Below the pieces are notes generated by a model. The model was not told the origin of the DNA. It made no database searches and saw only the letters and a list, made by a program, of their open reading frames with translations. Below are positions 5,603 through 21,783 of a DNA stretch of 64,000 nt, piece by piece. Within the stretch, counting starts at the first letter, position 1. Each line of letters starts with the position of its first letter. A program made the position numbers and the translations under genes. Origin of the DNA: Micromonospora chaiyaphumensis (GTDB lineage Bacteria; Actinomycetota; Actinomycetes; Mycobacteriales; Micromonosporaceae); assembly GCF_900091435.1 (NCBI RefSeq), contig NZ_FMCS01000001.1, forward strand, positions 124,001-188,000, written 5' to 3'.

Positions 5603-7207
5603 GTGACGACGCTCGACCGGGAAGAGACCCGTGCCACCGGCGGGGCACGCCCCGGCGCCGGCGGACGGCCGCTGCCGCTGAAACTGGCCGTCCCGGCGGC
5701 CCTGCTGGCCGGTCTGGCGCTGCTTGTCGCCTTCCCCCCGTACGGGCTGTGGCCCCTCGCCCCGGCCGGTGTGGCGCTGCTCGCCGCCGCGGCGCACCGG
5801 CGGCGGCTGCGCGCCGGCGCCGGGCTGGGCTTCCTCGCCGGGGTGGCGCTGTTCGCGCCGCTGCTGGAGTGGACCAACCTGCACACCGGCTACCTGCCGT
5901 GGCTGCTGCTGTCGCTGCTGCAGGCCGGCTACCTCGCGCTGCTCGGCGCCGCCACCGCCTGGGTGTCCCCGCTGGTCGACCGGCACCGCGCGGCGTGGCC
6001 CCTGGTCACCGGGGTGCTGTGGGTCGGGCAGGAGGCGCTGCGCGACCGCACCCCGTTCGGTGGGTTCCCGTGGGGGCGGCTGGCGTTCAGCCAGGACACC
6101 TCCCCGCTGCTGCGCCTGGCCGCGCTGGGCGGCGCCCCGCTGGTCACCTTCGCCGTGGCCCTCGCCGGCGGGATCCTGCTCACCCTCGCCTGGCGCGACT
6201 GGCGCCAGCCCGCCGGGCTGTGGCGGCCCGTCGCCGGGCTGGCCGCCGCCCTGGCCGCGGTGCTCGCCGCCGGCCCCGCCGTCCCGGCCGGCGTACGCGG
6301 CGGCGGGGACGGCGTCACCGTCGCCATCGTCCAGGGCAACGTGCCCCGCCTCGGGCTGGACTTCAACGCCCAACGGCAGGCCGTGCTCAACAACCACGTC
6401 GACGCCACCCTGAAACTGGCCGAACAGGTCGCCGCGGGCACCCAACGCCACCCGGACCTGGTGGTGTGGCCGGAGAACTCCAGCGACATCGACCCGCTGC
6501 GCAACCCCGGCGCCGGCGAGCGGATCACCCAGGCCGCCGACGCGATCGGCGCGCCGATCCTCGTCGGCGCGGTGCTGCTCGGCCCCGGCGAGGGCCAGGT
6601 CCGCAACGCCGGCCTGCTGTGGCGCCCCGGCAGCGGCCCCGACCTGGACCAGCTCTACACCAAACGGCACCCCGTCCCGTTCGCCGAGTACGTGCCGCTG
6701 CGCGAGATCGCCCGCATGGTCAGCTCCGAGGTCGACCGGGTCCGCTCCGACTTCGTCCCCGGCGCCACCCCCGGCGTGCTGGAGACCGGCCCGGCCATCC
6801 TCGGCGACGTGATCTGCTTCGAGGTCGCCTACGACGGCATCGTCCGGGACACCGTCACCGGTGGCGCGCAGCTGCTGGTGGTGCAGACCAACAACGCCAC
6901 CTTCGACGTGGCCGAGGCCCGCCAGCAGCTGGCCATGGTCCGGCTGCGCGCCGTCGAGCACGGTCGCGCCGCTCTGATGGCCTCCACGGTCGGTGTGTCC
7001 GGGTTCGTTTCCCCGGACGGGCGGGTAGACGGGGCCACCGGGTTCAACACCGCCGCAGTGGTGGTGCGGCAGATGCGGCTCGGCGACGGGCGTACCCCGG
7101 CCACCACGGCCGGGGTGTGGCCGGAGGTGGCCCTCGCGGCGCTCGCCGTCGCGGCCCTGGCCGGCGCGGCGGTGCTGCGCCGCCGCCGGGAGGTCGACCC
7201 GGGGTAG
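5603..7207 (+). CDS. lnt: Apolipoprotein N-acyltransferase
   Basis: About 534 residues. N-terminal hydrophobic segments (five to six, residues 25-225) are followed by a nitrilase-type domain and a last transmembrane helix near the C-terminus. The catalytic triad is visible: Glu near 290 (WPENSS), Lys near 353 (YTKRHPVPF) and Cys near 404 (DVICFEVAYDG). The enzyme N-acylates the lipobox cysteine of lipoproteins in the membrane. GTG 5603 is preferred because GAGG lies 5 bases upstream; GTG 5597 is the alternative. The next gene, a polyprenol mannosyltransferase, follows 25 bp later. In mycobacteria the two activities are fused in Ppm1. Confidence 0.9.
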   Translation: MTTLDREETRATGGARPGAGGRPLPLKLAVPAALLAGLALLVAFPPYGLWPLAPAGVALLAAAAHRRRLRAGAGLGFLAGVALFAPLLEWTNLHTGYLPWLLLSLLQAGYLALLGAATAWVSPLVDRHRAAWPLVTGVLWVGQEALRDRTPFGGFPWGRLAFSQDTSPLLRLAALGGAPLVTFAVALAGGILLTLAWRDWRQPAGLWRPVAGLAAALAAVLAAGPAVPAGVRGGGDGVTVAIVQGNVPRLGLDFNAQRQAVLNNHVDATLKLAEQVAAGTQRHPDLVVWPENSSDIDPLRNPGAGERITQAADAIGAPILVGAVLLGPGEGQVRNAGLLWRPGSGPDLDQLYTKRHPVPFAEYVPLREIARMVSSEVDRVRSDFVPGATPGVLETGPAILGDVICFEVAYDGIVRDTVTGGAQLLVVQTNNATFDVAEARQQLAMVRLRAVEHGRAALMASTVGVSGFVSPDGRVDGATGFNTAAVVVRQMRLGDGRTPATTAGVWPEVALAALAVAALAGAAVLRRRREVDPG

Positions 7208-20127: not shown

Positions 20128-20309
20128 GGGACGCGCTCAGCGGCCCCGTTGCCGGCCAGCCGGGTGAGGGTGAGCACGGGCACCGCGACCCGCAGCCCGA
20201 ACAGCGCGGTGAAGACCGGCAGCAGCAGCACCGCGCCACCGAAGCCGGTCACCGCGGACAGCACGGCCAGCAGGAACGCCGCCGCCGAGGCCGCCAGCAG
20301 GCCGCTCAG
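20128..20309 (-). pseudogene. Remnant of a TauE/SafE-family membrane transporter
   Basis: Reading left on the minus strand from the end of the YkvA gene, the frame gives ASAAAFLLAVLSAVTGFGG followed by AVLLLPVFTALFGLRVAVPV and LTLTRLAGNG. This is the start of a TauE/SafE sulfite/anion exporter. The match ends at about 20130, where the GNAT gene ends, and about 200 further residues are missing. No ATG or GTG precedes the fragment except an internal GTG at 20264. It is a truncated relic. Confidence 0.65.
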
Positions 20310-20728
20310 CGCTCGCGCCCCTCGGTGCTCTCGCCGGTCGGCGCCGGGCCGAGCAGGCGCAGCAGCAGCCGGGGCTCACCCGGCCACGCGTCGAGCAGCA
20401 CCTGCCGCGGCACCTGCCGGCCGGCGTAGCGCAGCGCGAGCGCCACCACCACGATGTCGTCCAGCGGGCCGATGACCGGCAGGAACTCCGGGATCAGGTC
20501 GATCGGGCTGGCCAGCCAGAGCCCCGCGAACACGATCGCGACCTTGGCCCGCCGCGGCACCCGGGGGTCGCGGCGCAACCGGCGCACGGTGGTCAGGCAG
20601 TCCGGGATGAAGGCCGCCAGGTCGCGCAGGATGCCCGGCGGCAGCCGCCGCGCGAGCAGCACCAGCAGCGCCCAGCTGGCCAGCAGGCAGACCACCGCGA
20701 CCCCGAGGCCGATGAGCCAGTCACGCAC
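20306..20728 (-). CDS. YkvA-family (DUF1232) membrane-associated protein
   Basis: A 140-residue protein with one N-terminal transmembrane helix (residues 5-27) and a DUF1232 core near residues 70-105 (AKVAIVFAGLWLASPIDLIP, then EFLPVIGPLDDIVVVALALRY). DUF1232 proteins are small membrane proteins of unknown role, common in bacteria. Its stop overlaps the start of the TauE relic, suggesting the two once formed an operon. Confidence 0.85.
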   Translation of the reverse strand: MRDWLIGLGVAVVCLLASWALLVLLARRLPPGILRDLAAFIPDCLTTVRRLRRDPRVPRRAKVAIVFAGLWLASPIDLIPEFLPVIGPLDDIVVVALALRYAGRQVPRQVLLDAWPGEPRLLLRLLGPAPTGESTEGRER

Positions 20729-20815
20729 GCCGCTGGTACCTCCCGCCCGGTACGGGCCGCCCGCCGGCCCACGAGGAATGTACGCCCCGAGACATGAGGG
20801 TCAGTCGTAAACCGT

Positions 20816-20845
20816 TTGAGCCCTGCTTCCGCGGTCCCGTAGGTT
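20816..20845 (+). promoter_or_regulatory. Candidate promoter of the DUF1062 gene
   Basis: TTGAGC (20816-20821), 18 bases, then TAGGTT (20840-20845) is a reasonable vegetative promoter. It would start a transcript near 20852, giving a leader of nearly 200 bases before the ATG at 21047. That leader contains a short ORF and alternative pairing segments. Confidence 0.5.
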
Positions 20846-20885
20846 GCCCGCAACCCGTCGCACCGAGGACAGAGGACAAAACCGC

Positions 20886-20906
20886 GTGACCCCGCCTGCT
20901 CTCTAG
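20886..20906 (+). CDS. Possible leader peptide MTPPAL before the DUF1062 gene
   Basis: GTG ACC CCG CCT GCT CTC TAG encodes six residues, with GAGGAC about 10 bases upstream. Its stop codon lies inside CTAGACCTGACA (20903-20914). That string is complementary to two separate downstream segments just ahead of the main gene. A ribosome on this ORF would cover that strand. The diproline (CCG CCT) is a natural slow spot. Too short to prove by sequence alone. Confidence 0.45.
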   Translation: MTPPAL

Positions 20907-21040
20907 ACCTGACATCTTCTTCCGCTCACCGGTAGCCGACGCTCCCGTCGGTTCCGCCGGGCTGCCCCTGTGCGCCCGGTCGTACAGCGATTGAGGCCGC
21001 GCGTGATCGGCCTCGTGTCAGGTCGAGAGATCAGGTCTAG
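20900..21040 (+). promoter_or_regulatory. Attenuator-like leader with mutually exclusive pairings
   Basis: Segment 1 (20900-20915) can pair with segment 2 (21015-21030) over 16 positions with one A.G mismatch and one G-U. It can alternatively pair with segment 3 (TCAGGTCTAG, 21031-21040) through a perfect 10-bp match with 20903-20912. Segments 2 and 3 contain a direct repeat (TCAGGTCGAG, TCAGGTCTAG) and end 6 bases before the ATG at 21047. A small local hairpin, CCGACG-CTCC-CGTCGG (20936-20951), lies between. This looks like a ribosome-controlled switch on translation or transcription of the DUF1062 gene. Confidence 0.5.
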
Positions 21041-21046
21041 CGAGTC

Positions 21047-21607
21047 ATGTCTTCATCCCCTCATATCGTGCTGCCCTGGGTTGTCCGTCGGACCAGGCTG
21101 CCGCTGCTGTCGTTGCGGTGCGTGGACTGCCGGTCGGAGTCGGCGACCACCGGCGACGGCAGGTTCCGGGTCAACGCCAACGGCAAGCTGCTGGACGTGT
21201 GGTTGCTGGTCCGCTGCGTGTCCTGCGACCGGACGAGCAAGCTCACCGTGTACGAGCGGGCGGCGGTCAGGTCCATCGATCCAGGTGAGTTGCACGGCTA
21301 CCACGTCAACGATCCGGAGCTGGTGGCGTCCCGGCTGTTGGATCCGCTGCTCGCCCGGCGCAACCGCTTCACCCTGGACTGGACGGATGCCTGGCGGCTG
21401 GACACCCCGCCGGAACGGCTCGACGAGACGTGGCCGGTGCGGGTGGACGTCGTCTTCGAGGACCCGGTGCCGGTGCGCCCGGAACGGCTCATCGCGCAGG
21501 GGCTCGGCCTCAGCAGGACCGAGGTGCTGCGCCGCGTCAAGTGCGACATCTCGCTGCGCCGCTCGACCAGTGCCGATTTCACCTTCACCGTGACGGCCGG
21601 GGACTAG
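21047..21607 (+). CDS. DUF1062 protein with two CxxC zinc-ribbon halves
   Basis: A 186-residue protein of the DUF1062 family. Two CxxC pairs, LRCVDC (near residues 23-28) and VRCVSC (near 57-62), probably bind one zinc. The C-terminal part (LGLSRTEVLRRVKCDISLRR near 150-170) resembles a small helix-turn-helix or S4-like RNA-binding segment. The function is unknown. There is no clear Shine-Dalgarno before ATG 21047; instead the start lies right after the alternative-pairing leader. The elaborate leader suggests induction under a specific stress, possibly a translation inhibitor. Confidence 0.82.
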   Translation: MSSSPHIVLPWVVRRTRLPLLSLRCVDCRSESATTGDGRFRVNANGKLLDVWLLVRCVSCDRTSKLTVYERAAVRSIDPGELHGYHVNDPELVASRLLDPLLARRNRFTLDWTDAWRLDTPPERLDETWPVRVDVVFEDPVPVRPERLIAQGLGLSRTEVLRRVKCDISLRRSTSADFTFTVTAGD

Positions 21608-21783
21608 CCCGGTGGAGCCGGGCGGGCCACCGCGGCCCGCCCGGCTACACCCACGAAACCAGCCGATACCGGACACACGGAGCTTCGTGGTCGAGTTCCT
21701 CAGCCCCGGGAACAGGCGGGTCCCGGTCGGCGCTGAAACGGGTCGGTGACCGGCGGATACGGTGGGAACGGGAGGTGACGGCG

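Follow-up and report, generated by a model that had tools for sequence, protein, structure and literature searches.

Within a stretch of 64,000 nucleotides of the genome of Micromonospora chaiyaphumensis (contig NZ_FMCS01000001.1, positions 124,001 to 188,000; hereafter the window), a gene of the DUF1062 family follows a leader with a six-codon open reading frame and several segments that can pair with one another. This arrangement raises the question of whether a ribosome on the small frame decides if the gene is translated, and to what signal such a switch would respond. The initial annotation had described the mini-ORF, two pairings of the strand that holds its stop codon, and the adjacent tandem copies with which it pairs just before the ATG at 21047. 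Recomputed on the window sequence, the description is accurate: 20900-20915 pairs with 21015-21030 through 14 Watson-Crick pairs, one G-U and one mismatch, and 20903-20912 pairs with 21031-21040 in a perfect 10 bp helix, while a repeat search gives a longer version of the first, 20 nt at 90% (20895-20914 with 21016-21035). The fold of the leader beats 200 of 200 dinucleotide shuffles (z -4.4), and in an Rfam scan of the leader no known RNA family was found, the top score of 10.9 bits (E 3.4) being at the level of chance. The name of the peptide, MTPPAL, presupposes that GTG is decoded as fMet; a literature search for it returned nothing. The parts of the leader are collected in Table 1.

Table 1. 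Promoter, leader elements and gene at the DUF1062 locus, in window coordinates.
Feature	Position	Strand	Evidence and remarks
WblC/WhiB7-box-like GTAAAC	20807-20812	+	One mismatch to GAAAWY; most orthologues have GAAAAC
Predicted sigma-A promoter	-35 TTGAGC 20816-20821; -10 TAGGTT 20840-20845	+	18-nt spacer; fits TKGMNN-N16..19-TANNNT
SD-like AGAGGA of the mini-ORF	20871-20876	+	Sequence; 9 nt 5' of the mini-ORF; (G)AGGAC kept in alignments
Mini-ORF M(V)TPPAL-stop, GTG ACC CCG CCT GCT CTC TAG	20886-20906	+	Six codons, GTG start, TAG stop
P1 5' arm CTCTCTAGACCTGACAT	20899-20915	+	Overlaps mini-ORF codon 6 and stop; pairing, fold, covariation
Hairpin 2 GCCGAC...GTCGGT	20935-20952	+	Kept in long and short leaders
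Hairpin 3 CCGGGC...GCCCGG	20957-20979	+	Consensus fold; missing in the short leader class
Hairpin 4 GAGGCCG...CGGCCTC	20993-21014	+	99% paired in consensus fold; no U-tract, hence not a typical terminator
P1 3' arm, copy 1 GTGTCAGGTCGAGAGA	21015-21030	+	Pairing, alignments, covariation
Second tandem copy of the 3' arm TCAGGTCTAGCGAG	21031-21044	+	Abuts copy 1, beside the DUF1062 start codon
DUF1062 protein, 186 aa	21047-21607	+	ATG start; PF06353, E 6e-36, 124.5 bits against a cut-off of 23

Leader DNA was matched in 49 of 201 genomes of the family, nearly always directly 5' of DUF1062 genes or of decayed copies of them. A scan of named genomes, comprising 80 DUF1062 loci from Micromonospora, Plantactinospora, Asanoa, Nonomuraea, Actinomadura, Microbispora, Streptosporangium, Nocardiopsis, a few Streptomyces and others, found the mini-ORF leader kept at 78. 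Of the other two, L179 is without the start codon but retains ATG CCT GCT CTG TAG at the same place, and in L220 the gene start is rearranged. The genes around DUF1062 are not fixed: in a comparison of 79 loci the commonest neighbouring family was present at no more than 16, so that promoter, leader and gene form the unit. The distribution of the gene is also patchy which, together with the lack of fixed neighbours, indicates that it moves.

The small frame evolves like a coding sequence. Among 127 distinct leaders found 5' of DUF1062 genes (Micromonosporaceae, Streptosporangiales and relatives, and a few Streptomyces), codons 2-5, which specify Thr-Pro-Pro-Ala, show 47 synonymous versus 1 non-synonymous differences from the consensus, these being differences among related sequences and not independent events. 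As these codons lie outside the helix, pairing cannot account for a synonymous-only pattern, and from the alignments the mini-ORF is under constraint at the level of the peptide. The start is GTG, ATG or TTG, and the stop TAG in 83 leaders, TGA in 43 and TAA in one; where TAG is lost, the frame mostly continues two codons to a TGA within the same arm. With six codons, MTPPAL would be a very short candidate stalling peptide.

The helix is conserved as a structure. In 72 long leaders, P1 and the three hairpins have standard pairs in 94% of the cells, and changes on both sides of a pair occur in 32 cells, against 9.7 in shuffled alignments (none of 500 reaches 32) and no more than 16 with the partner slid along. 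Seven sequences have U-A in place of a C-G pair of P1, and in hairpin 2 one A-U pair is changed to G-C in 13 of the 72; a large share of P1 is invariant, and the covariation signal rests on few positions. Variation within the short leader class alone is too low for a covariation test. The absence of the ORF or of compensatory changes from orthologous leaders would have spoken against the regulatory reading of the locus, and both turn out to be present. Long single-stranded segments of the leader are likewise conserved.

How the helix would work is simpler than the initial annotation had supposed, namely a choice between the two adjacent copies. Only 19 of 107 long leaders carry the second copy, the named ones being from Micromonospora relatives and the others from genomes of the window's own family, so that a competition between copies as the general switch had to be discarded; one 3' arm suffices, and on the alignments the second copy is a lineage-specific duplication and not the conserved switch. 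Since most orthologous leaders have a single copy, the simple model is that of a single helix that either covers the start region or leaves it open. In the single-copy leaders the 3' arm includes the AGAGAG purine tract and stops a few nucleotides 5' of the start codon, the Shine-Dalgarno sequence of DUF1062 being weak (AGAGAG or AGCGAG); where a species has two copies, copy 2 stays partly unpaired when copy 1 is in the helix. By its position P1 can be predicted to sequester the DUF1062 start region while overlapping the uORF. When a ribosome was represented by a mask during folding, the accessibility of the start region rose from 0.31 to 0.41-0.52 in the long leaders of the window's type (type A), and from 0.29 to about 0.39 in a second type, B, described below. 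The rise is modest, which makes the energetic case weak by itself, though it is in the right direction.

Upstream of the leader lies a promoter that suggests when it is transcribed. WblC-activated promoters of Streptomyces coelicolor share the consensus GAAAWY, 3 bp, TKGMNN, 16-19 bp, TANNNT (PMC7157823), from which the entire promoter of the window, GTAAAC-CGT-TTGAGC-N18-TAGGTT (20807-20845), is one mismatch away; transcription would be expected to start at about 20852, 5' of the mini-ORF. The consensus is matched in its strict form by 68 of 107 long leaders, 2 of 20 short and 17 of 27 type B leaders, and in a loose form by 99, 15 and 26 of them respectively, compared with 1 (strict) and 4 (loose) of 1264 background chunks. 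The distance from the -10 element to the mini-ORF is mostly 39-41 nt. The genome of the window also has a WhiB7 homologue, a Whib-family ORF with an RGRP AT-hook (G000:C8:164692-164841, minus strand). Given the promoter consensus and this homologue, the best reading of DUF1062 is as a putative gene of the WhiB7/WblC regulon. On the other side of the promoter there is a divergent ORF (20306-20728, minus strand), by eye similar to a DUF1232-type small membrane protein, the 5' end of which is about 80 nt from the DUF1062 promoter.

A Streptomyces-type subfamily of DUF1062, present also in Micromonosporaceae, has a leader of unrelated sequence (type B, 27 leaders) built to the same design, with a WblC-type promoter, a four-codon uORF M-Y-x-x-stop and a helix burying the start region. 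The uORF reads TTG TAC (ACC) NNN TGA, with TTG TAC NNN NNN TGA as its conserved core without Pro codons; many of the frames could open two codons earlier (GTG or ATG CCG), and only the TTG is kept in all. The strand TGTACACC...GTGAGA pairs with TCTCAC...GGTGTAC directly 5' of the start codon of the gene. Codons 3 and 4 vary non-synonymously, so the peptide seems to matter less here. The 5' arm of type B begins at the start codon of the uORF, and a ribosome at that codon would therefore already cover it, whereas in type A the arm begins at codon 6, which would require a stall within Pro-Pro-Ala-Leu; the position of the arm would fit a peptide that is conserved in A and not in B. In type B leaders such as L095:1275-1401, a GC-rich hairpin followed by UCCUUUUU lies between the arms; the terminator scan was silent, and this could be a transcription attenuator. 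Two Micromonosporaceae loci of a more distant DUF1062 subfamily (L126, L138) retain the CCGTTGTACACCAGCTGAGAC element, with the uORF MYTS, at a long distance from the gene, and their 3' arm is less distinct. A third subfamily (L111, L135-L137; protein start MNxxRKALWAV or GIDRKALWVV) has no recognisable leader of either type and is possibly regulated in another way.

The short class of leaders is found in many Micromonospora-like genomes, mostly before a DUF1062 frame broken by deletions. It belongs to units of about 900 nt with sharp ends and differing internal deletions, in about 20 related genomes, one of which (G194) has two. We discarded the idea that a conserved leader had outlived a decayed gene, because the whole unit is conserved at about 80-94% and the leader barely above the rest. 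One copy, before a decayed DUF1062 frame, is in the genome of the window itself (G000:C14:6371-6496, minus strand; L062/L082, region 6284-6496).

The conserved uORF, the covarying helix, the WblC-type promoter and the second, unrelated leader of the same design can all be read from the compared sequences, and we consider it likely that the leader works as a translational attenuator, controlled by the uORF, on a transcript of the WhiB7/WblC regulon. Translation stress would lead the WblC-type promoter to make the mRNA, on which the uORF would be translated. Ribosomes moving freely would read its six codons fast, P1 would shut over the DUF1062 ribosome-binding region and little protein would be made. 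A ribosome stalled, presumably in a drug-dependent manner, in Thr-Pro-Pro-Ala-Leu-stop would cover the 5' arm of P1, and the start region would be freed (the ON state) and DUF1062 translated; the protein would then most likely act on stalled or drug-bound ribosomes. The logic of a ribosome-sensing attenuator and the link to ribosome-targeting agents, both proposed for this locus at the outset, gain support from the conservation of the uORF, the covariation of the helix and the WblC/WhiB7-type promoter. The suggestion of a new inducible system needs to be divided: the conserved regulatory leader is real, and both the example and its target are new, but the logic was already known.

It is that of the erm and cat translation attenuators, in which a leader peptide precedes a helix that sequesters the downstream start and stalling opens the helix; those attenuators differ in encoding known resistance enzymes and in having other leader peptides. 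In Escherichia coli toiL-topAI, a structure hiding the downstream ribosome-binding site is opened by ribosomes stalled on a short uORF by several antibiotic classes (PMC12121999). The DUF1062 leader shares with it the short uORF and the structure over the ribosome-binding site, but sequence, host and target (there a toxin-antitoxin) are different, toiL-topAI also uses Rho termination, and its drug response was shown, while we infer that of the DUF1062 leader. Very short uORFs also precede the Streptomyces are5sc and tiaA genes, where lincosamides and pleuromutilins cause ribosomes to stall at the start codon; the are5sc uORF is MLV with a TTG start and the gene belongs to the WblC regulon (PMC12421871). 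The likeness lies in a tiny uORF before actinobacterial resistance genes, and the difference in their predicted terminator/antiterminator and ABCF targets, as opposed to a start-region helix and, in type A, no terminator. The uORF in the whiB7/wblC leader provides ribosome-mediated control of the regulator (PMC10727445), that is, uORF control in the same stress pathway; it acts by transcription attenuation and its target is the regulator itself.

These relatives make it necessary to consider that the DUF1062 leader might instead end transcription, by an intrinsic or Rho-dependent route, whenever no ribosome is stalled on the uORF, as in whiB7 or are5sc. Related WblC-regulon leaders do use transcription attenuation (PMC12421871, PMC10727445), and both the GC-rich hairpin followed by UCCUUUUU in type B and the UCUUUU that follows hairpin 2 in the short type A leaders are compatible with it. 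However, a simple scan for a GC hairpin with a U-tract gave no site in 20700-21700 of the window, which includes the leader, and scanning the sense strand of one type B leader gave nothing terminator-like either, and the conserved, covarying helix sits over the start region, where translational control requires it, so that we regard this route as improbable. What the uORF senses is a related matter. It could be the translation state of the cell itself, with the Pro-Pro step reporting on proline supply or EF-P, and not a drug, as the Pro-Pro is invariant in type A and such motifs stall ribosomes in the RAPP arrest peptides (PMC10951233); yet the type B core controls the same family without Pro codons, and the WblC-type promoter indicates translation-inhibitor stress in both types of leader. 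We think this unlikely, if the least so of the alternatives.

Two other explanations dispense with the sensing ribosome. Like ribosomal protein S4, DUF1062 might bind the leader of its own gene, the uORF merely helping to set the structure, and the S4-like C-terminus of the protein (see below) and the long conserved single-stranded segments would agree with such autoregulation. It would leave unexplained the synonymous-only constraint on TPPA and the same plan of uORF and helix in two unrelated leaders, and is in our opinion very unlikely. Least likely of all is that there is no regulation and that the conservation just reflects a gene which spread recently together with the DNA 5' of it: the gene is indeed patchy, without fixed neighbours and hence mobile, but the limitation of uORF changes to synonymous ones, the compensation within P1 and a constant promoter spacing do not follow from recent spread.

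If the leader is an attenuator of translation, the nature of its product becomes of interest. The N-terminus of DUF1062 has zinc-ribbon-like CxxC pairs (C25/C28, C57/C60), and the C-terminus (about residues 125-186), with the motif RLIAxGLGLSRxEV, resembles S4 domains. The AlphaFold models have a pLDDT of 89 for the whole protein and 92 for the C-terminus, for which Foldseek places RluD first (probability 1.00, TM 0.65, E 0.028), with RsuA and a YlmH-50S chain lower; the part of RluD that is matched would be its S4 domain. Pfam S4 (PF01479) matched none of 27 DUF1062 members and none of 4 distant homologues, and when profiles were compared with those of S4 domains from the same genome the probability was 67% (39% and 26% with the distant set). 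On these models the C-terminus looks S4-like, or like a degenerate S4 fold, and we refrain from calling DUF1062 an S4 protein. The full-length fold had no match in the PDB with E below 0.001, PADLOC gave no convincing defence-system match, and no methyltransferase or acetyltransferase family of Pfam matched.

YlmH, which has an S4 domain, takes part in ribosome-associated quality control (PMC11317155), and it is for this reason that rescue comes to mind. Among the S4-domain ribosome factors (YlmH, the S4 domain of RluD, Hsp15/RqcP), to which the C-terminal fold bears most resemblance, DUF1062 would be set apart by the missing Pfam S4 match in the members tested and by the added zinc-ribbon-like N-terminus, its ribosomal role being hypothetical. 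We believe that it is probably a factor dealing with stalled ribosomes. A more specific proposal, that it is a new factor, induced by antibiotics, which uses its zinc ribbon and S4-like domain to rescue or protect drug-stalled ribosomes in the way of YlmH or RqcP, and that MTPPAL and MYxx are independently evolved sensor ORFs for different types of stall, is offered tentatively, as something that may well prove wrong. A family without assigned function, mentioned once each by two papers among those searched, now has a concrete hypothesis: that it belongs to the response of actinobacteria to inhibitors of the ribosome, possibly as a new factor for intrinsic resistance or rescue in genera that produce antibiotics. 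Distant DUF1062 homologues are also present in enterobacteria and rhizobia (L231 and L236, a Klebsiella plasmid and Salmonella records, are examples), and the family is thus wider than the regulon.
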